Below, one piece after another: positions 10,065-19,686 of a stretch of DNA of 64,000 nt. Under the pieces are notes generated by a model. It was not told the DNA's origin. It did not search any database and worked only from the letters and a program-made list of their open reading frames with translations. The first letter of the stretch is position 1, and each line of letters opens with the position of its first letter. The stretch covers positions 2,542,001 through 2,606,000 of the forward strand of contig JAPCWB010000001.1 in NCBI GenBank assembly GCA_025938935.1, written 5' to 3'. This DNA comes from Novosphingobium sp. MW5. Lineage in GTDB: Bacteria; Pseudomonadota; Alphaproteobacteria; Sphingomonadales; Sphingomonadaceae. Made by a program: the position numbers and the translations under genes.

Positions 10065-10146
10065 GTCGGTTCTCGCTTCGCGGGGTGGGGGTGTGAAAAG
10101 AACCGCCGAGCGCCAGAACGGTTCCCTTGCCAAGCCGGAACAATGA

Positions 10147-10161
10147 GAACATAAAAAGAAC
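10147..10161 (+). promoter_or_regulatory. LexA operator (SOS box) for imuA-imuB
   Basis: GAAC-ATAAAAA-GAAC, an exact match to the alphaproteobacterial LexA site GAAC-N7-GAAC (reverse complement of GTTC-N7-GTTC). It lies 27 bases before the likely imuA start. The same extended pattern GAACATAWAARGAACAT recurs twice in this window (12397 and 16125). Confidence 0.92.
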
Positions 10162-10187
10162 ATTGAGCCGATTCGCTGTTGCTGACC

Positions 10188-10897
10188 ATGACCTTTGCCA
10201 CACCTCTTTCCGCCCCGCAGACCGCGCGATGGCAGCCCGGACTGGCCGCCCCCCGCTCCATGCCGAACTCTTTGCGCAAGGTGAGGAAGGGGCGGGGGCG
10301 GCCATGGCGATTGCCCTTGCGCGCGATCACTTGCGCATGGCGGGCGATCCCTTGGCGGATGTGCCGGACGAGCGCGCCTGGCTCTGGGTGCAGGACAAGG
10401 CGGCGGTGCGGCTTTCGGGCCGCCCCTACCGCCCCGGCCTGCCGCGCGAACTGCGCCACCGGCTGATCCATGTCGCCGCCAACAAGCCCGAGGATGCGCT
10501 GTTCGCCATTGAGGAGGGGCTGCGCTGCCGCGACCTGGCCTTTGTCATCGGTGAAATTGCCGGCAATCCCCGCGCGCTCGATTTCACCGCATCCCGGCGG
10601 CTCAGTCTGGCGGTGGAGCGGCATGGGGTGCCCTTGTGGCTGGTACGGCTCGATGCCGCGCGGGATCTCGGTTCGGCGCGGATGCGCTGGGAGGTGCGTT
10701 CCGCCGTGTCGGAGCCGCCGCTGCGCAACCCCTATGCGCCGGGATCGCCCGCCTGGCAGGCCGAACTGTTCCGCGCCCGCAACCACCCTCCCGGAGAATG
10801 GACCCTGCGCGATGAAGGAGGAGCGCTCCATGCATTCCCGCCGCATCATGGCGATCTGGTGCGCGCACCTGTCGATCGACCGCTGGCGGCTTTGTGA
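10188..10897 (+). CDS. imuA: SOS mutagenesis protein ImuA (RecA-like; probable one-base frame break)
   Basis: RecA-related accessory protein of the ImuA-ImuB-DnaE2 translesion mutasome. The bulk, from LHAELFAQGEEGAG onward, is in one clean frame with conserved AWLWVQDKAAVRLSGRPY and HVAANKPEDALFAIEEGL. Two starts are possible. ATG 10229 lies in the main frame but lacks a ribosome site. I prefer ATG 10188, whose product MTFATPLSAPQTARWQPG runs into the main frame if one C is added to the six-C run at 10249-10254. That start also lies 27 bases after the LexA box, like dnaE2 (30 bases). The 3' end overlaps imuB by 68 bases. The start is inferred; the gene identity is firm. Confidence 0.85.
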
Positions 10898-12371
10898 AGG
10901 CTGCGCGCCGGGGGAGGGGCCTGATGCCGAGCCGCACGCGCTGATCACCGAAACCGCGCACGGCCCCCGTATCGCGGCCATCAATCCGGCTGCGGCAGAG
11001 GCCGGGGTGCGGCGCGACGCGTTGCTCGCCGATGCCCGCGCGGTCTGCCCCTCGCTCGCCACCAGCCCGGCCGATCCGGCGGGCGACCTCGCTTTCCTTG
11101 AAGCGCTGGCGCTGTGGGCGCAGCGCTGGGGGCCGTGGTCGGCGATCGACCCGCCCGATGGCCTGATCGTCGATGTCACCGGGGTAGCCCACCTGTTCGG
11201 CGGCGAGGCCTCGCTCCTTGCCGATGCCGCGCAGCGGCTTGGCCTGCGGGGGCTGGGGGTGCGCACCGCCATCGCGCCGAGCGCCGGGGCGGCCTGGGCG
11301 CTCGCCCACTTTGGTCCGCAGCCTGCGATCATGCAGCCGGGGGACAGCCTCGACGACCTGCCCGTGGCGGCGCTGCGGCTCGATCCGGCGGTAAACCTGC
11401 TGCTGCGCCGGCTTGGCCTCAAGCGCATCGGCGACTTGGGCGGGGTGGCGCGTTCAGCCTTGGCCCGACGGTTCCGCAATCGCCACAACCCGGCCGCCAA
11501 CCCGCTGATCCGGCTCGACCAGCTCATGGGCCGGGTGCCCGAACCCTTGCTGCCGGTGATCGCGCACGAGGTGCCGCTGGTCCAGCGCCGCCTGATGGAG
11601 CCGATCCGCCACCGCGACCTGCTCGACCGGGTGATGGAAGACCTGGCACAGGACATGGCCCGCCTGCTCGAAGCGCGGGGCGAGGGCGCGCGGCGGCTTG
11701 AGGCGGGGATGTGGCGCGTCGATGGCGAAGTGCTGGTGCGCCGGCTCGAACTCGCCTCGGCCAGCCGGGACGGGGCGCACATCGTCCGCCTGTTCGCCTC
11801 GCGGCTTGATGATGTCGAGGCGGGATTCGGCATCGAGATGGTCCGCCTGCGCGCGCCGTGGTGCGAGCCGGTCGCGCTGTCGCAGCGCGATTTCGATGCC
11901 GCTTCGGAAGAGCACGGCACCAGTCTGGCCGCCTGCATCGACCGGCTGGTCGTGCGCCTTGGCGAAGGGGCCGTGCGCCGCCCGGTGCCTCACGCCAGCC
12001 ACTTGCCCGAGCGCGCCCAGCGCTGGCAGCCGCCGCTCGAGCCGCAGCCGGCAAGCCAGGGCGAGTTCGCCTTTCACGACCGGCCGCTGAAGCTGCTCGA
12101 CCGGGCGGAGCGTATCGCCGTGCTCTATGCCACGCCCGATGGCCTGCCGCGCCGCTTCAGCTGGCGTGGGGGAGTACATGATATCGCCCGCGCCGAAGGG
12201 CCGGAGCGGATCGCGCCCGAATGGTGGCGCGAACGCTCGACCGCGCGGCTGCGCGATTACTACCGGATCGAGGACGAGGCCGGCCGCCGCTACTGGATCT
12301 ACCGCGCCGGCATCCTCGGCGATGGGCGCGAGGGTGCGCCCGAATGGTTCCTGCAAGGGCTGTGCGGTTGA
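10830..12371 (+). CDS. imuB: SOS mutagenesis protein ImuB (inactive Y-family polymerase homologue)
   Basis: 513-residue DinB/UmuC-like protein that connects ImuA, DnaE2 and the beta clamp in SOS mutagenesis. The N-terminus reads MAIWCAHLSIDRW, without the metal-binding acidic pattern of active Y-family polymerases, as expected for ImuB. The middle carries the little-finger-like region (GLKRIGDLGGVARSALARR); the C-terminus has the ImuB tail with a conserved WWRE and RDYYRIEDEAGRRYWIYR. ATG 10830 is chosen because AAGGAGG sits nine bases upstream; ATG 10812 lies before that site. It overlaps imuA and is co-transcribed from the LexA-controlled promoter. The gene ends 25 bases before the next LexA box. 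Confidence 0.95.
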   Translation: MHSRRIMAIWCAHLSIDRWRLCEGCAPGEGPDAEPHALITETAHGPRIAAINPAAAEAGVRRDALLADARAVCPSLATSPADPAGDLAFLEALALWAQRWGPWSAIDPPDGLIVDVTGVAHLFGGEASLLADAAQRLGLRGLGVRTAIAPSAGAAWALAHFGPQPAIMQPGDSLDDLPVAALRLDPAVNLLLRRLGLKRIGDLGGVARSALARRFRNRHNPAANPLIRLDQLMGRVPEPLLPVIAHEVPLVQRRLMEPIRHRDLLDRVMEDLAQDMARLLEARGEGARRLEAGMWRVDGEVLVRRLELASASRDGAHIVRLFASRLDDVEAGFGIEMVRLRAPWCEPVALSQRDFDAASEEHGTSLAACIDRLVVRLGEGAVRRPVPHASHLPERAQRWQPPLEPQPASQGEFAFHDRPLKLLDRAERIAVLYATPDGLPRRFSWRGGVHDIARAEGPERIAPEWWRERSTARLRDYYRIEDEAGRRYWIYRAGILGDGREGAPEWFLQGLCG

Positions 12372-12396: not shown

Positions 12397-12411
12397 GAAC
12401 ATATAAAGAAC
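12397..12411 (+). promoter_or_regulatory. LexA operator abutting the radical SAM gene start
   Basis: GAAC-ATATAAA-GAAC, exact SOS box. It ends two bases before the ATG at 12414, so the operator occupies the place of the ribosome binding site. Either the transcript has a very short or no leader, or translation depends on imuB read-through. A weak candidate promoter is TTGAAA (12369-12374) with TCTAAG (12392-12397). Confidence 0.9.
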
Positions 12412-12413
12412 AT

Positions 12414-13661
12414 ATGTCGCAGCCCAGCCTGATCGAACGCCTCGCCATCCTTGCCGATGCCGCCAAATACGATGCCTCCTGCGCCTCGTCCGGCACATCG
12501 AAACGCACCAGCAAGGGCGGCAAGGGCATTGGCTCGACTGAGGGCATGGGCATCTGCCACGCTTATGCGCCGGATGGGCGCTGCATCTCGCTGCTGAAGA
12601 TCCTGCTGACCAACCACTGCGTGTTCGATTGCCATTACTGCATCAACCGCAAGAGCTCGAACGTCCGCCGCGCGCGGTTCACCCCACAGGAAGTGGTGGA
12701 CCTGACGCTCAGCTTCTATCGCCGCAATTACATCGAGGGGCTGTTCCTCTCCTCAGGCATCGTCAAGAATTCCAGCCACACGATGGAGCAGTTGATCGAG
12801 GTTGCCCGCATCCTGCGCGAGGAGCACGATTTCCGCGGCTATATCCACCTCAAGACCATTCCCGAGGCTGACCCCGAACTGGTCCGGCAGGCGGGCCTTT
12901 GGGCCGACCGCGTCTCGATCAACGTCGAACTGCCTACCCGTGACGGCCTGACAAAACTCGCGCCCGACAAGAGCGAAGCCGTGATCGAAGGCGCCATGGC
13001 CGATGTGAAGGAGGCAATTGCCGAGAACAAGGACGCCCGCAAACACTTCCGCTCCGCGCCGAAATTCGCGCCTGCCGGTCAGTCGACCCAGATGATCGTC
13101 GGCGCCGACGCCGCCAGCGACGCCGATATCGTCAGCAAGGCGAGCGCGCTTTACGGGCAGTTCCGCCTGCGCCGCGTGTACTATTCCGCCTTCAGCCCGA
13201 TCCCCGATGCCAGCAGCGTCCTGCCGCTGAAACGCCCGCCGCTGATCCGCGAACACCGGCTCTACCAGTCCGACTGGCTGATGCGCTTTTACGGCTTCGC
13301 GCCGCAGGAAGTGCAATCGGCGGCGGGGGCGGACGGCATGCTGCCGCTCGATATCGATCCCAAGCTCGCCTGGGCGCTCAAGTTCCGAGAGAGCTTCCCG
13401 GTCGACGTCAACCGCGCCCCGCGTGAAATGCTGCTGCGGGTTCCGGGCTTGGGCACTAAGGCGGTTGGTGCGATCCTTGCCAGCCGCCGCCACCGTACCT
13501 TGCGGCTAGAGGATGTCGCCAAGCTCAGCGTGTCGGTCGCCAAGCTGCGGCCCTTCATCGTTACGGCTGACTGGCGGCCAGTGCTGCTGACCGACCGCGC
13601 CGACCTGCAAAGCCTGATCGCCCCCAAGCGCTCCGAACAGCTCGAACTGTTCGCCGCATGA
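12414..13661 (+). CDS. Putative DNA modification/repair radical SAM protein (TIGR03916-like)
   Basis: 415-residue radical SAM enzyme distantly related to spore photoproduct lyase. The radical SAM Cys triad CxxxCxxC is seen in NHCVFDCHYCINR. The N-terminus has the family text AKYDASCASSG and ICHAYAPDGRCISLLKIL, which fixes the start at 12414. The C-terminal ~60 residues hold a helix-hairpin-helix (NRAPREMLLRVPGLGTKAVG), a DNA-binding fold. The reaction is unknown; the family is named from its pairing with a DUF4130/UDG-type protein. Here that partner follows with a four-base overlap, and both lie behind a LexA box between imuB and dnaE2. A role in SOS-induced DNA repair is inferred from this context. 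Confidence 0.92.
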   Translation: MSQPSLIERLAILADAAKYDASCASSGTSKRTSKGGKGIGSTEGMGICHAYAPDGRCISLLKILLTNHCVFDCHYCINRKSSNVRRARFTPQEVVDLTLSFYRRNYIEGLFLSSGIVKNSSHTMEQLIEVARILREEHDFRGYIHLKTIPEADPELVRQAGLWADRVSINVELPTRDGLTKLAPDKSEAVIEGAMADVKEAIAENKDARKHFRSAPKFAPAGQSTQMIVGADAASDADIVSKASALYGQFRLRRVYYSAFSPIPDASSVLPLKRPPLIREHRLYQSDWLMRFYGFAPQEVQSAAGADGMLPLDIDPKLAWALKFRESFPVDVNRAPREMLLRVPGLGTKAVGAILASRRHRTLRLEDVAKLSVSVAKLRPFIVTADWRPVLLTDRADLQSLIAPKRSEQLELFAA

Positions 13662-15106
13662 CCCCGTTCCGCGATGCCCGCATTGCCGATGCCTGCGCCG
13701 TGCCGCTGGCCGCGCCCGATGATTTCGACGGCTGGCGCGAGCAGGCGCGGCGGCTGATCATGGCCGAGGTGCCGCCCGACCGGGTGGTCTGGATCGTTCC
13801 GGGTGAGGGCAATGGCGATCTGTTTGCCGAAAGCCCCGGCCATTCGCGCCGCCTGCCTGTGCCGCGCGCCGCTGCCCCGCAGCCCCGCGTTTCGCGAGCT
13901 TTCCTAAGCCTTGCCAAGGCGGCGGCGCTGCACAGCGATCCGCAGCGATTTGCCCTGCTGTACCGCTTGCTGTGGCGCTTGCAGGGGCGGCCCGGCTTGC
14001 TGGAGGACAAGGCCGATGCCGATGTGCGGCGGCTCCATGACCTCTCCCGCGCGGTGCGGCGTGACAGTCACAAGATGCACGCCTTCGTCCGCTTTCGCGC
14101 GGTGGAGGACGAAGAGGGACGCGAACATTTCGTCGCCTGGTTCGAACCATCGCACCATATCCTGCGCGCCAATGCGTCGTTCTTCATCAACCGCTTCACC
14201 ACGATGCGCTGGTCGATCCTGACCCCGCGCGGCAGCCTGCACTGGGATGGCGAGGTGCTGCTGGAAGGTCCGTCCGCGCGGCGCGAGGATGCTCGCGGCG
14301 GCGATCCTGCTGAGGACCTGTGGCGGCAGTATTACGCCTCGATCTTTAATCCGGCGCGCCTCAAAGTGGGCGCGATGGTCAAGGAAATGCCGCGCCGATA
14401 CTGGAAGAACCTGCCCGAGGCGGCGCTGATCCCGGACCTGATCGCCGGTGCCCAGGCGCGCGAGGCGGCGATGGTTTCCGCTGGCGGCGATCCCTTTGCC
14501 GGGATGGCAAAGCCGGAGGACCTCGACGCATTGGCGAAGGGCATTCGCGATTGTCGCCGCTGCCCGATAGGCTGCAACGGCACGCGCGCCGTGCCGGGGG
14601 AAGGGCCGGGTAACGCTTCGCTGATGATCGTTGGCGAGCAGCCGGGCGATCACGAAGAGATGGAAGGGCGTCCCTTCGTCGGGCCTGCAGGCCAGCTTCT
14701 GGATGAACACATGGGCGCCGCAGGAATAGACCGGCAGCGGGCGCGGCTGACCAATGCGGTCAAGCACTTCAAGTTCGAGCAGCGCGGCAAGCGCCGTCTG
14801 CACCAGAACCCGACCGCCAAGGAGATCGACATATGCCGCTGGTGGCTCGATGCCGAGCGCGCGATCGTCAGGCCGAAGCTGGTGCTTGGGCTGGGCGCCA
14901 GCGCGGGCCGCTCTTTATTGGGCAAGACGACATCGATCCAGTCGGTGCGGGGCAGGCCGATTGCCTTGGCTGACGGCAGCGAGTTGTGGCTTACCGTGCA
15001 TCCGTCCTACCTGTTGCGGCTCGACGGAGAGGCTCGCGAAGCGGAACGCGGCAGGTTCGCGGCGGATCTTGCAGCCGTTGCTGCCCGCCGCCGCGAACTG
15101 GCCTGA
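13658..15106 (+). CDS. udgX: DUF4130 - UdgX fusion: uracil-DNA binding protein
   Basis: 482-residue two-domain protein. Residues ~1-250 match the DUF4130/TIGR03915 'DNA metabolism' family (LYRLLWRLQGRPGLLED, FVAWFEPSHHILRANASFF, PRRYWKNLPEA). Residues ~280-482 are a family-4-like uracil-DNA glycosylase of the UdgX type. That domain has Fe-S cysteines in CRRCPIGC, motif A GEQPGD, TNAVKHFKFE, the UdgX-specific loop GKRRLHQNP and the C-terminal HPSYLLRL. In studied UdgX the His of this loop forms a covalent bond with uracil-containing single-stranded DNA; that His is present here. The start overlaps the radical SAM gene by four bases, so the pair is translationally coupled. Often annotated as two genes elsewhere; here they are one frame. 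Confidence 0.94.
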   Translation: MTPFRDARIADACAVPLAAPDDFDGWREQARRLIMAEVPPDRVVWIVPGEGNGDLFAESPGHSRRLPVPRAAAPQPRVSRAFLSLAKAAALHSDPQRFALLYRLLWRLQGRPGLLEDKADADVRRLHDLSRAVRRDSHKMHAFVRFRAVEDEEGREHFVAWFEPSHHILRANASFFINRFTTMRWSILTPRGSLHWDGEVLLEGPSARREDARGGDPAEDLWRQYYASIFNPARLKVGAMVKEMPRRYWKNLPEAALIPDLIAGAQAREAAMVSAGGDPFAGMAKPEDLDALAKGIRDCRRCPIGCNGTRAVPGEGPGNASLMIVGEQPGDHEEMEGRPFVGPAGQLLDEHMGAAGIDRQRARLTNAVKHFKFEQRGKRRLHQNPTAKEIDICRWWLDAERAIVRPKLVLGLGASAGRSLLGKTTSIQSVRGRPIALADGSELWLTVHPSYLLRLDGEAREAERGRFAADLAAVAARRRELA

Positions 15107-15110
15107 GGCA

Positions 15111-16001
15111 TTACATCGGATCAGCGGCGAAGCTTTGGCGGGTCATCTCGTCAAGCGCTTCCTGCGGTACCGGAGCGGCGTCGCCGGCGATGAACGAGAG
15201 CAGATCGTTCTTCAGTCGCTCGGTGTCGGTCGCGAAGACGCCATGGGCCGAGCCATCGTATTCGATCAGGCGTGAGCCCGGTACCTTTTTGGCGACTTCA
15301 CGCGCCGTCGGATCAATCGGCACTGTCTTGTCGTCAGTGCCGTGGATGATCAGTGTCGGCACCTTGAAATGGGCCAGATCGGGGCGGAAGTCGGTGGTGG
15401 CAAAGGCCTTTGCCGCGGCATGGGTGGGGCGCAGTCCGGCCTGCATGGCGGTGAGCCAGGAAAGGTGAAGCACTTCGTCGCTTACCGGCTTGCTGACCCA
15501 GCCGACTCCGTAGAAGTCCTTGAAGAAGGACGTGAAGAATTTCGCCCGATCTTCGAGCATGCCTTGCGTCATTTCATCGAAGGTTTCCTGCGGCACGCCG
15601 TCCGGATTGCTTTCGTCCTGCAGCATGTATGGGACGACTGAGGACACCAGAGCAATGCGGCTCACGCCCTTGCCCTGATGGCGCGACATGTAGCGGGCAA
15701 TTTCGCCGCCGCCCATCGAGAAGCCGACGAGGGTGACATCGTCTTGAGCGTCGTGGAACTTCATCACGGCGGATAGGTCATCGGCAAAGGTATCGTAGTC
15801 ATAGCCACCCGAAGGCTGACTCGACCGGCCAAAGCCGCGCCGGTCATAGGAGATAGCCTTGAAGCCGGCGTCGGCCAGGCCATGGCTGATCGGGTCCCAG
15901 CTATCGGCAGAGAGGGGCCAGCCATGAATCAGAACGACCGGCGGACCTTCGCCCCATGCCTTGGAATAGAGGTGGGCGTCGCCGGTTTCGATGATGTGCA
16001 T
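15111..16001 (-). CDS. Alpha/beta hydrolase, non-heme chloroperoxidase-like
   Basis: 296-residue alpha/beta-hydrolase. It has the oxyanion HGWPLSADSW motif, RRGFGRS, nucleophile elbow GFSMGGGE, acid in IIHGTDDKTVP and catalytic His in DGSAHGVF, all in the expected order. This is the cofactor-free haloperoxidase/esterase branch; the natural substrate is unknown. It lies opposite to the SOS genes and splits dnaE2 from the imuAB-radical SAM-UdgX block. The start is divergent from dnaE2, 123 bases from its LexA box, and no SOS role is suggested by the sequence. Confidence 0.9.
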   Translation of the reverse strand: MHIIETGDAHLYSKAWGEGPPVVLIHGWPLSADSWDPISHGLADAGFKAISYDRRGFGRSSQPSGGYDYDTFADDLSAVMKFHDAQDDVTLVGFSMGGGEIARYMSRHQGKGVSRIALVSSVVPYMLQDESNPDGVPQETFDEMTQGMLEDRAKFFTSFFKDFYGVGWVSKPVSDEVLHLSWLTAMQAGLRPTHAAAKAFATTDFRPDLAHFKVPTLIIHGTDDKTVPIDPTAREVAKKVPGSRLIEYDGSAHGVFATDTERLKNDLLSFIAGDAAPVPQEALDEMTRQSFAADPM

Positions 16002-16124: not shown

Positions 16125-16139
16125 GAACATAAAAGGAAC
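16125..16139 (+). promoter_or_regulatory. LexA operator (SOS box) for dnaE2
   Basis: GAAC-ATAAAAG-GAAC, exact GAAC-N7-GAAC site, 30 bases before the dnaE2 start at 16170. It is in the same orientation and has the same A/T-rich spacer as the other two boxes. Confidence 0.92.
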
Positions 16140-16169: not shown

Positions 16170-19100
16170 GTGCCTGAAGCCGCCCTAACTCCCGAACGCC
16201 GCCGCGTGGAGCAGTCCATGCTGCCGCCTGCCGATGCCGCGCCCTTCGTGGAACTCGGTCTGGCGAGCTGCTTTTCGTTCCTGCGCGGGGCCTCCGATGC
16301 GGTGGATCTGGCGCTGACGGCGCGGCGGCTTGGCTATGACGCGCTGGGGATTGCCGACGCCAATTCGATGGCCGGTGTGGTGCGATTGCACGGTGAGGCA
16401 AAGGCGCTGGGCATGCGGCCGGTCATCGGCTGCCGGATCGAGACGGTGGAGGGGCTGGTGTTCCTCGCCTATCCGGTGGACCGCGCCGCCTATGGCCGTC
16501 TCTGCCGCCTGATCTCCGCCGGGCGCATGGCGCGGCCGGATGGTGAATGGCAGGACAAGGGCGTCTGCGAGATTACGGTTCCCATGCTGGCGGACCATGC
16601 CGAGGGGGTGCAACTCGTGCTGGTGCCGCCGCGGGACCTGGCGGCGGAATTTGCTGTGGCGGTGGAGGGCAATATTGTCCCTTTGCGTCGTCCCGGACTT
16701 GATCCGGGACCGCTGGAGGACGGGAGCGAGGTTGCGGTAGAAAGGCCAGCGGTCCCGGGTCGGCCCCGGGACGACGTCTTGACCGCCCCCCTCGAAATCC
16801 TGCTGCCGCATCTCATCCAACAGCTTCCCACGCTGCGGCATTTGGCGGCGAGTTATCTCCACGCCGGGGACGATATTCGCCGCATCGCCGCGCTCGATGC
16901 CATGGCGCGGGAGAACGGGATCGGCCTGTTCGCCACCAATGACGTGCTCTACCACGCGCCGGAACGCCGCCCGCTGCACGATGTGATGACCGCGATCCGG
17001 CACAAGACCACGGTGGCCAAGGCAGGCTACCTGCTCGAGGCCAATGGCGAACGGCACCTGAAATCGCCGGAGGAGATGTGCCGCCTGTTCGCCGCCTGGC
17101 CGCACGCGATCGCGGCCTCGCGGCAAGTGGCGGATGCCTGCCGGTTCAGCCTCGACGAGCTGCGCTATGAATATCCCGAGGAGACCTGTCCCGAGGGGCG
17201 CACCCCGCAGGAGCATCTTGAGGTCCTGACCTGGCAGGGGGCGGAAGGCCGCTATCCCCACGGCCTGCCCGAGGACGTGCGCGCCACATTGGAGCGGGAG
17301 CTGGAACTGATCGGCAAATTGCAGCTCGCCCGCTATTTCCTCACCATCAAGGACATCGTCGATTTCGCCCGGTCGCAGGATCCGCCGATCCTGTGCCAGG
17401 GGCGCGGATCGGCGGCCAATTCGGCGGTGTGCTATGTGCTGGAGATCACCGCGGTGGACCCTGCGCGCCACTCGCTGCTGTTCGACCGGTTCATCTCCGA
17501 GGACCGCAACGAGCCGCCCGACATCGACGTCGATTTTGAACACGAGCGGCGCGAGGAGGTGATCCAGTACATCTATGCCCGCTATGGTCGCCAGCGCGCC
17601 GGGCTTTGCGCCACGGTGATCCACTACCGCCCACGCATGGCGATCCGCGAGGTGGGCAAGGCTATGGGCCTGTCCGAGGACGTCACCGGTGTGCTCGCCC
17701 GCACGGTCTGGGGCGGGCACGGGCGCTCGATCAAGGAGGCCCATGTCGCGACGGAAACGGGTGTCGATCTCGACGATCCGCACCTGCGCCGCGTGCTGGC
17801 GCTGACCGAGCAGATGATCGGCATGCCGCGCCACCTGTCGCAGCACGTTGGCGGGTTCATCCTCACGCAGGGCCCGCTGACCGAGACCGTGCCGATCGGC
17901 AATGGCGCCATGCCCGAGCGCAGTTTCATCGAATGGGACAAGGACGATATCGAGGCGCTGGGCATCCTCAAGGTCGATGTTCTGGCGCTTGGCATGCTCA
18001 CCTGCATCCGCAAGTGCCTCGACCTGCTTCGGACGCACCATGGGCAGGACCTGACCCTCGCCACCGTGCCGAAAGAGGACCCGGCGGTTTACGACATGCT
18101 GTGCAAGGGCGATCTCGCTCGGCGTGTTCCGGGTGGAAAGCCGCGCGCAGATGAACATGCTGCCGCGCCTGCGCCCGCGCCAATTCTACGATCTCGTGAT
18201 TGAGGTCGCCATCGTGCGGCCCGGGCCGATCCAGGGCGATATGGTCCACCCCTATCTCAAGCGGCGGCGCGGGGCGGAGAAAGTCGAAATCCCCGCGCCC
18301 GGTCCGGCGCATGGCCCGCCGGATGAGTTGACCTCGATCCTCGGTCGCACCCTTGGCGTGCCGATCTTTCAGGAACAGGCGATGAAGATCGCGCTCGATG
18401 CCGCCAAGTTCACCGGGGCCGAGGCAAACCGCCTGCGCAAGGCCATGGCCACATTCCGTTCGCGCGGCATGGTCGATGAATTGCAGGACATGATGGTCGG
18501 CCGCATGATCGAACGCGGCTACGATCCGGATTTTGCGGAGCGGTGCTTCAACCAGATCAAGGGCTTCGGCGAATACGGCTTCCCCGAAAGCCACGCGGCC
18601 AGCTTTGCCCTGCTGGTCTATATCTCGTCATGGCTGAAGTGCCATTTCCCGGCAGCTTTCGCCTGCGCGCTGCTCAATTCGCAGCCGATGGGCTTCTACG
18701 CCCCGGCGCAGATCGTGCGCGATGCGCGGGAGCATGGCGTGCCGGTGCTGCCGGTCGATGTGAACTGCTCGGGCTGGGACAATACGCTGGAAGTGGAGAG
18801 GGGAGCGGTCGCCCTGCGCCTCGGCCTGCGGCAGGTCGATGGCTTCCCCGAGGCGGCGGCGGCGCGGATCGTTTCGGCGCGCGAAGAGGGCGGGCGCTTT
18901 GCCGATGTGCGCGAATTGCAGGAGCGGGCGGGGCTGTCCCCCGCGCTGGTTGAGCGCCTTGCCGCGGCGGATTGCTTCAATTCGCTGGAGATTACCCGAC
19001 GGCAAGCCTTGTGGGACGCGCGCAGCCTGATTGCAGCGCCCGAGCTGCCGCTTTTCGCCGCCATGCAGGCGCGCGGCGAAGGGGCGGAGGCCAAGGCAAC

Positions 19101-19686
19101 GCGGCTCCCGGCCATGCCGCTCAGCGAAGAGGTGGTGGCCGATTACCAGACCCAGCGGCTTTCGCTCAAAGCCCACCCCATGGCCTTCCTGCGGCCGCAG
19201 CTGGCCGAGCGCGGCTTTGTCCGGGCGGCAGACCTGCGCCTGCGCAAGTTCCGTTCGTCCGTGCAGGTCGCCGGCGTGGTCCTCATCCGTCAGCGTCCGG
19301 GCAGCGCCAAGGGCGTCTGCTTCATCACCATCGAGGACGAAAGCGGCGTCGCCAACCTGGTCATCTGGCCCGATGTCATGGAAAAACAGCGCAAGGTGAT
19401 CATGAGCGCGCGGCTGATGGAGGTGCAGGGGCGGGTGGAATATGACGACGAGGTGATCCACGTGATCGTCACCCGGCTTACCGACGCCACCGCCAGCCTG
19501 CATGCCTTGTCGGACGACATGCTGAACAGCCCCGCCGCCCGCGCAGACCATGTCAGCCGCCCGTTGCCATCGCGCTTCCAGCCCGAAGTCTGGCAGCCCC
19601 CGGGCCCCGGAAATCGCGATTGCGGGTGGAGCCATGGCCATCCCCGCGATGCCCGGATCATCCCGGCCTCACGCGATTTCCATTAA
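16170..19686 (+). CDS. dnaE2: Error-prone DNA polymerase III alpha subunit DnaE2 (one-base frame break)
   Basis: Catalytic polymerase of the ImuA-ImuB-DnaE2 translesion system, C-family DNA polymerase. N-terminal PHP domain begins FVELGLASCFSFLRGAS; the polymerase active site includes PPDIDVDFEHERREEV; the C-terminal part has HhH and OB-fold regions and the typical DnaE2 ending RDARIIPASRDFH. Start GTG 16170, 30 bases after a LexA box. At 18110-18118 the text GATCTCGCTCGGC breaks the frame. GATTCGCTCGGC would restore the family sequence GDSLGVFRVESRAQMNM. The length of 3517 bases is 1172 codons plus one, agreeing with one surplus base, so this is probably a consensus error. A palindromic repeat is inserted in frame at residues ~173-202 of the PHP region (annotated separately). 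Confidence 0.93.
16687..16775. repeat. ~89-base palindromic element inserted in frame in dnaE2
   Basis: Left arm 16687-16716 (GTCGTCCCGG...GACCGCTGG) and right arm 16746-16775 (CCAGCGGTCC...CCGGGACGAC) are inverted copies, identical over their outer ten and inner eleven bases. The 29-base loop contains GCGAGGTTGC at 16726-16735. A second element with matching arms, a 29-base loop and the same loop core on the other strand lies at 39236-39323. Inside dnaE2 it is read without a stop and adds about 30 residues rich in P, G, R and D, in a loop of the PHP domain that is not conserved. Confidence 0.85.

Follow-up and report, generated by a model that had tools for sequence, protein, structure and literature searches.

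A predicted SOS-controlled radical SAM and DUF4130-UdgX gene pair with a clamp-type tail, located between imuAB and dnaE2 in Novosphingobium

In Novosphingobium sp. MW5 (Alphaproteobacteria, Sphingomonadales), two adjoining genes, one for a radical S-adenosylmethionine (SAM) protein and one for a fusion of DUF4130 with UdgX, sit between imuA-imuB and dnaE2, and three LexA-type boxes lie within 6 kb (Table 1). The window, that is, the whole stretch of 64,000 nucleotides that was analysed, spans positions 2,542,001 to 2,606,000 of contig JAPCWB010000001.1 (assembly GCA_025938935.1). The box in front of the radical SAM gene, GAACATATAAAGAAC, reads GTTC-N7-GTTC on the minus strand. A first-pass annotation, made from the letters of the DNA, had placed the end of this box two bases before the ATG at 12414, and had described a four-base overlap of the two genes, a CxxxCxxC motif and a C-terminal helix-hairpin-helix (HhH) in the radical SAM protein, and a partner that joins DUF4130 to UdgX with its His in GKRRLHQNP. 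All of this was borne out: bases 12412-12413 intervene between box and ATG, the genes share an ATGA, both motifs of the radical SAM protein are present, and the partner exceeds the cut-offs of TIGR03915 (223 bits, cut-off 112.25) and of the UdgX model TIGR03914 (301.7 bits, cut-off 189.95) and carries GEQPGD, GKRRLHQNP and HPSYLLR. The imuAB and dnaE2 flanks with boxes of their own, a clamp-type tail and three extra cysteines go beyond that annotation.

Table 1. Features of the locus in window coordinates; papers are cited, here and in the text, for the parts of them that were available
Feature	Position	Strand	Basis or conservation
Radical SAM gene, TIGR03916, 415 aa	12414..13661	+	571 bits, cut-off 343.5
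DUF4130-UdgX fusion gene, 482 aa	13658..15106	+	TIGR03915 at residues 19-255, TIGR03914 at 257-474
ATGA, start/stop overlap of the two genes	13658..13661	+	Sequence
LexA-type box GTTCTTTATATGTTC, with -10-like TATAAA (12402-12407) on the + strand	12397..12411	-	Box in 129/131 loci
Predicted -35 position (TAGCCA), weak in this genome	12379..12384	+	Box-anchored promoters; relatives favour TTG here
Codons of C23, C48 (with H49) and C57, candidate auxiliary Fe-S site	12480..12584	+	Kept in 153/154; putative cluster
C69xxxC73xxC76, SAM-cluster motif	12618..12641	+	Kept in 154/154 proteins
HhH motif RVPGLG, residues 342-347	13437..13454	+	Invariant residues; Pfam below cut-off
QLELF (409-413), beta-clamp-binding-type motif at the C-terminus	13638..13652	+	Tails of relatives; consensus PMC12309361; predicted binding
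UdgX motif A GEQPGD, residues 326-331	14633..14650	+	In 112/113 fused partners; motif per PMC10359453
UdgX R-loop KRRLH with His382, counterpart of M. smegmatis UdgX His109	14789..14803	+	Role per PMC10359453
imuA open reading frame	10127..10897	+	NF033429 E 4.2e-5, under its cut-off; homologues adjoin imuB and dnaE2
LexA-type box upstream of imuA	10147-10161		
imuB frame	10893..12371	+	Pfam IMS 28.1 bits (cut-off 23.2), DUF6504
Alpha/beta hydrolase gene between the DUF4130-UdgX gene and dnaE2	15111-16001	reverse	
LexA-type box upstream of dnaE2	16125..16139	-	
dnaE2, two overlapping frames (16170-18203 and 18124-19686)	16170..19686	+	NF004225 matched in two halves

Across the class, 385 genomes were searched for the association of the two genes. 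TIGR03916 exceeded its cut-off in 25 of them, TIGR03915 in 25 and both in 24, a co-occurrence of 24/25 genomes each way (Fisher p 7e-36). As for the unpaired genomes, G045 is truncated by the end of a contig (locus L097) and G182 has a radical SAM fragment beside the partner (L098). TIGR03914 was over its cut-off in 34/385 genomes, 19 with the pair and 15 without either partner over cut-off, and five of the 24 genomes with radical SAM and DUF4130 have no UdgX over cut-off. These counts suggest a unit made up of radical SAM protein plus DUF4130, to which UdgX is an optional addition. Both families also score in the control genome of Caulobacter vibrioides (C. crescentus), a laboratory species, and the radical SAM family is found in other phyla too. 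The set of loci used below came from a fetch that kept the best 80 of at least 587 matches and is therefore weighted to close kin; the nearest named relatives among the matches listed belong to the Sphingomonadales (Novosphingobium, Erythrobacteraceae). DUF4130 was detected at an expectation value (E) of 1e-8 in 143 of 154 loci. Among the other 11, L097, L173, L196 and L245 end too early, a neighbouring gene in L248 and in L249 is annotated as TIGR03915, and L125 shows DUF4130 at E 1e-3; the remaining four are L247 and L253, together with L194 and L251, in which no DUF4130 was detected. The estimated gap between the two genes exceeds 100 bases in 19 loci, and translations read from 13 loci revealed varied inserted genes.

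In the radical SAM protein, C23, C48, H49 and C57 are kept in 153 of the 154 proteins and are lost together in L251 (Gemmatirosa). Conserved cysteines besides CxxxCxxC are a mark of radical SAM enzymes with an auxiliary cluster (LipA/MiaB type), and C23, C48 and C57 probably serve as ligands of such a second Fe-S cluster. The C-terminal HhH is weak in Pfam (HHH_3, 20.2 bits, E 6.5e-4, cut-off 27), yet R342, P344, G345 and G347 are invariant in 154/154 proteins. No solved relative was found by sequence in the PDB at E 0.01. An AF2 model (mean predicted local distance difference test, pLDDT, 82.4) has as its top fold neighbours by VIA-align lipoyl synthase LipA (4u0o; Z 17.6, root-mean-square deviation (rmsd) 3.0, 217 aligned) and, tied with it, HydE (7o1o; Z 17.2, rmsd 2.5, 213 aligned), next to biotin synthase BioB (8vcw; Z 16.4, rmsd 2.9, 214 aligned). 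MiaB and RimO are among the Foldseek matches.

The UdgX motif is present in 113/142 partner proteins, and 111 of these 113 have the R-loop His (107 by pattern, 4 by eye), the exceptions being L124 and one HKTPH loop. Of the 29 partners not recognised as fused, L159 proved to be fused by tblastn and L239 has a UdgX match in a short frame, which leaves 27. The UdgX domain superposes on M. smegmatis UdgX (6ajo) with Z 30.0, rmsd 1.6 and 198 aligned residues, and structure searches with the partner returned lists filled by uracil-DNA glycosylase (UDG) structures. Across 45 sequences, the DUF4130 part shows invariant residues of its own, such as H138, W161, E163, F230-R234 and W249. Two further observations concern the UdgX fold. 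The CxxC before motif A is missing in 15 of the 113 fusions (L210, L223 and L156, for example), in which the R-loop His and motif A stay, and 12 of those 15 also lack the Cys of the C-R-W-W stretch; such forms may have lost their Fe-S cluster. In addition, the UdgX domain has a structural match in an N-terminal stretch of the family-A DNA polymerase phiLo (PDB 9qhs_A; Z 17.2, rmsd 2.5, 160 aligned).

The loose pattern GTTCN7GTTC has four matches in the window where 1.45 are expected, a number reached by 6 of 100 shuffles, and genome-wide it is hardly enriched (118 sites, compared with 98 for a reversed control pattern). The tighter form GTTCN5ATGTTC occurs at 15 sites in the genome, against 2 for its reversed control, and three of the 15 fall in the window, upstream of imuA, of the radical SAM pair and of dnaE2. 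As judged from translations, other sites of this form precede recA, uvrD and radA, and also several mobile-element and unrelated genes; a GTTCN7GTTC site stands 50 bases upstream of one of the two lexA copies. The box before the radical SAM gene gains weight because of its tighter form, its place and its conservation. A box of the GTTCN7GTTC type that starts at most 150 bases upstream or 45 bases downstream of the extrapolated start of the radical SAM gene was found in 129 of the 131 loci of the class, window included, and it reads GAAC on the coding strand in 117 of them. The two loci without an exact box are L077 and L216, the latter having one with a single mismatch. In loci from other classes of the phylum, CTGTN8ACAG lies near the radical SAM start in 12/17, and with one mismatch in three more; the other two, L125 and L127, show neither form. 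Two GAACN4GTTC sites are present in L249 (Pusillibacter) and a single mismatched one in L247 (Acetoanaerobium), while the upstream regions of L248, L251 and L252 were inspected by eye, outside the pattern scan. These counts across classes indicate that SOS-type sites are kept near the gene in relatives though the LexA motif differs among groups. Conserved SOS control of the pair, exerted in part through the boxes of other groups as predicted LexA-binding sites, is thus supported, as the first-pass annotation had supposed for this locus.

Two observations on upstream sites stand apart from these counts. A palindrome, GTCTCA-N5-TGAGAC, lies just upstream of the radical SAM gene in L127 and L228, both of which lack the LexA patterns tried, and is perhaps a lineage-specific operator, or else a hairpin. 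In the genome of strain MW5 itself, a second, different radical SAM protein (of the CEHGCIYCFARPTHAY type) begins at a GTTCTATTTATGTTC box, around position 1501 of locus L064; because this gene starts at a box, SOS control of radical SAM genes may extend wider in the genome.

Alignment of the promoters on the box revealed a further regularity. The consensus of 114 distinct promoters (104 after dereplication) is GAACATATAATGAAC, with TATAAT inside the box. The information content of the 114 promoters is 0.54, 0.33 and 0.38 bits at -18, -17 and -16, while 37 of 45 upstream positions stay below 0.1. A TTG starts at -18 in 33/104 promoters and at -17 in 10/104, and at any other position in at most 8. 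A TTG at -18 is separated from the -10 hexamer by a 17 bp spacer. The hexamer in the box is at most two mismatches away from TATAAT in 75/104 promoters and exact in none. Downstream, the first in-frame ATG, GTG or TTG follows the box at exactly 2 nt in 56/129 loci and at no more than 4 nt in 69 of the 104 dereplicated promoters; with the 2-nt spacing, an ATG begins at the seventh base downstream of the -10. This geometry supports a leaderless or near-leaderless mRNA, presumably started from a -10 element inside the LexA-type box, and the nearly leaderless transcript that the box position had earlier been taken to imply is consistent with it.

The radical SAM protein ends in ...QLELFAA. A strict clamp-type pattern was found in the tails of 124/153 relatives, in 1/1026 control open reading frames, in 0/144 partner proteins and in 0.6% of shuffled tails. 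A loose pattern, scored in the last 12 residues, gave 148/153 relatives, 6/1026 controls, 1/144 partners and 6.1% of shuffled tails. The control frames were the longest non-overlapping ones of at least 250 aa in the same loci, partners included, and not all of them are real genes. Three tails outside the loose pattern carry a motif further inside (L127 QGSLF, L247 QLSIF, L251 QLSLW). Residues 412-415 have pLDDT < 50 in the AF2 model, so that the protein combines a QLxLF-type peptide with an accessible tail, as would be looked for in a client of the beta clamp. Clamp motifs have been described as QL[S/D]LF or QxxLF (PMC12309361) and as Q-L-x-L-F, frequently C-terminal (PMC4549789), and mycobacterial ImuB docks on the clamp via QLPLWG (PMC10421592). 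By this likeness, the QLELF tail is predicted to dock the radical SAM protein on the beta clamp (DnaN).

Taken together, these features favour, at a probability of roughly 0.55, an SOS-induced pair that processes DNA lesions, in which a clamp-tethered radical SAM protein and DUF4130 form the unit and UdgX is accessory. DNA damage would lift LexA off the box overlying the -10 element, and both proteins would be translated from a leaderless or nearly leaderless mRNA; radical SAM protein and DUF4130 would work as one unit. The C-terminal QLxLF peptide would bring the radical SAM protein to the beta clamp, a platform that ImuB also uses, while its HhH would grip the DNA. A damaged nucleotide would then undergo SAM-radical chemistry, probably aided by a second Fe-S cluster on C23/C48/C57, at stalled forks or in gaps, which are sites of DnaE2 action as well. 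Where UdgX is fused, it would find uracil in exposed DNA, excise it and cap the abasic site via His382. In its fullest version, which is an even bet, the enzyme would have two clusters and an HhH, be tethered to the clamp, have DUF4130 as its obligate partner and be made from a leaderless SOS promoter; it would join the DnaE2 mutasome at stalled forks and repair or alter the lesions there, and UdgX would be an optional cap for abasic sites. A role in DNA lesions, already proposed in the first-pass annotation, is supported by the HhH, the clamp-type motif and the linkage to dnaE2 and imuB in some loci. dnaE2 adjoins the pair or diverges from it in 22/154 loci: in 17 (window not counted) it comes after the partner gene in the same orientation, no more than 300 nt away by the alignment ends, and in five it is accompanied by imuA-imuB and divergent from the pair, with one box between both units in four divergent loci (L078, L142, L146 and L157).

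Several points weigh against this reading. Among the 121 loci with enough flank, dnaE2 was seen in 20 and imuB in 19, which leaves 101/121 without dnaE2. A conserved gene order without SOS control, which the first-pass annotation had regarded as telling against its proposal, is not what most loci display, the exceptions being L077, without a box, and L125, L127, L228 (Xanthomonas) and L253, where none was found with the patterns tried. Both lexA copies of the genome are split in two frames and, if this is real, LexA control is lost in the strain; assembly errors are likely behind it because dnaE2 and, by translation, radA are broken too. No DUF4130 was present within 8 kb downstream in L194, and none was detected in L251. 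Of the 153 tails scored, those of L241 and L253 have no recognisable clamp motif. Since the loose tail pattern was broadened after variants had been seen, the strict count is the safer one. The exception to the cysteines, L251, is a single distant homologue (37% identity) with no DUF4130 partner detected nearby. Finally, the cysteine triad is not visible as a cluster in the AF2 model because pLDDT is below 50 at residues 24-48.

The pair could also be read in other ways. If the radical SAM protein abstracted a hydrogen from a pyrimidine photoproduct that DUF4130 recognises, the lesion would be reversed directly, in the manner of spore photoproduct lyase (SPL). To our knowledge, three extra cysteines are not a feature of SPL; the NCBIfam scan at E 0.001 returned no SPL model, only TIGR03916 and a weak thiH match, and SPL structures are absent among the fold matches listed, a listing that excludes nothing. 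In favour of such reversal, the short motif C-I-Y-D-C-x-Y-C is common to this protein and SPL-like proteins, and DUF4130 was linked to SplB-like radical SAM photolyases by Aravind and colleagues (PMC3765255), but the profile match to SPL-like proteins is confined to 10 columns around the cysteines (three SPL-like sequences, below the cut-off of their family). The profile comparison with LipA (15 LipA sequences) gave nothing, and both comparisons are uninformative because the alignments are narrow. Direct reversal is considered unlikely, if the least so of the alternatives. In LipA, BioB, MiaB and RimO, a second cluster serves sulfur insertion. The presence of these enzymes among the best fold matches (LipA 4u0o, BioB 8vcw) and Foldseek matches (MiaB, RimO), together with the dnaE2 linkage, would suit an enzyme that modifies a nucleotide or a protein, for instance by inserting sulfur or by methylation, so that DnaE2 bypasses lesions, which would make the pair a mutagenesis factor and not a repair system. 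However, the fold is common to many radical SAM enzymes, HydE ties with LipA, the LipA profile comparison lends no help and most full-flank loci have no dnaE2, and this reading too is doubtful.

The first-pass annotation had favoured a coupled machine for lesion recognition and radical repair or crosslink release, and in the latter form UdgX would capture uracil sites through a covalent bond, leaving the adduct to be released or repaired by the radical SAM protein. The covalent chemistry of UdgX is published (PMC10359453), and by motif UdgX is fused in most partner proteins. Nevertheless, 27/142 partners appear to lack it, and UdgX and the pair dissociate in both directions, the pair lacking UdgX in 5/24 genomes and UdgX lacking both pair genes in 15/34, so that adduct release as the core function is weakened and has become very improbable.

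Regarding the neighbouring genes, the identity of imuA is weakly supported on its own sequence (NF033429 is below cut-off), and its true start probably lies after the box. In the MW5 genome (L072, L285 and L286), dnaE2 is split in two frames near 18.1 kb, each lexA copy is likewise in two frames, and radA, read from its translation, seems to change frame after ~190 codons. The stated contamination of the assembly is 6.47%, and indel errors in the assembly are likely behind the split dnaE2, lexA and radA.

As to the composition of the samples, L098 (broken radical SAM gene) and L246 (cut short) were left out of all sets, L097 (open end) was left out of the tail and cysteine counts, and L250 was dropped as a duplicate of L252. 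L086/L205 and L092/L201 have identical proteins and were kept in the counts, with 128 distinct among the 130 fetched class loci. Viral contigs are represented by two loci, L245 (counted) and L246 (not counted), and two 'Acinetobacter phage' and eight 'Bacteriophage sp.' matches to the family were seen. L250 (CAKLQH020000003.1, Acinetobacter phage MD-2021a) was rejected as a viral copy: it adjoins glyS/glyQ, its neighbours match those in an A. baumannii record, and because of glyS/glyQ and the host gene order around the pair it is probably mislabelled host DNA.

The pair corresponds to a family already curated in NCBIfam as a putative DNA modification/repair radical SAM protein (TIGR03916) and its partner (TIGR03915/TIGR03914), the cut-offs of which are exceeded and the adjacency kept in relatives; the clamp-type tail, the cysteine triad, the promoter geometry and the imuAB-dnaE2 linkage are absent from the available parts of those family texts. 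COG4277 is presumably the radical SAM family of this locus. A COG1573-COG4277 operon has been described in Bacteroidetes as a two-gene UDG operon under LexA motifs, like the pair here, with SOS control reported also for Verrucomicrobia and Alphaproteobacteria (PMC8565304). There the operon is termed a putative base excision repair system, and the available parts of the text mention neither DUF4130 nor the clamp. The protein family, the pairing and, provided that COG4277-COG1573 is the pair, SOS control (PMC8565304, as far as its available parts go) are already known. For the clamp tail, the cysteine triad, the promoter geometry and the dissociation of UdgX, no description was found in the literature searched, outside which most subscription papers fall, and the same search gave none for the chemistry of the TIGR03916 family or for UdgX together with radical SAM. 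Caulobacter papers searched for 'radical SAM' gave none, and the available text of PMC10776899 has neither 'SOS' nor 'operon'.

LipA, HydE and BioB come closest in structure to the model of the radical SAM protein, but no sequence relation was detectable in the PDB at E 0.01 or to LipA profiles, and the protein adds an HhH and a clamp-type tail. We know of no radical SAM enzyme that is bound to the clamp. The conserved tail and the SOS promoter would say where and when this one acts and, if the favoured reading is true, the set of enzymes acting at the replication clamp would gain radical chemistry. With the ImuA-ImuB-DnaE2 mutasome the pair shares locus and box type here, whereas it usually stands apart from it (dnaE2 near the pair in only 20/121 full loci). 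M. smegmatis UdgX (PDB 6ail, 6ajo) has the same fold, GEQPGD, R-loop KRR[IL]H and HPSxLLR as the UdgX domain of the partner, which, unlike it, is fused to DUF4130 and adjoins a radical SAM gene. The physiological role of UdgX has been called largely unknown (PMC10359453), and the lesion-processing pair, if it exists as proposed, would give UdgX a setting.

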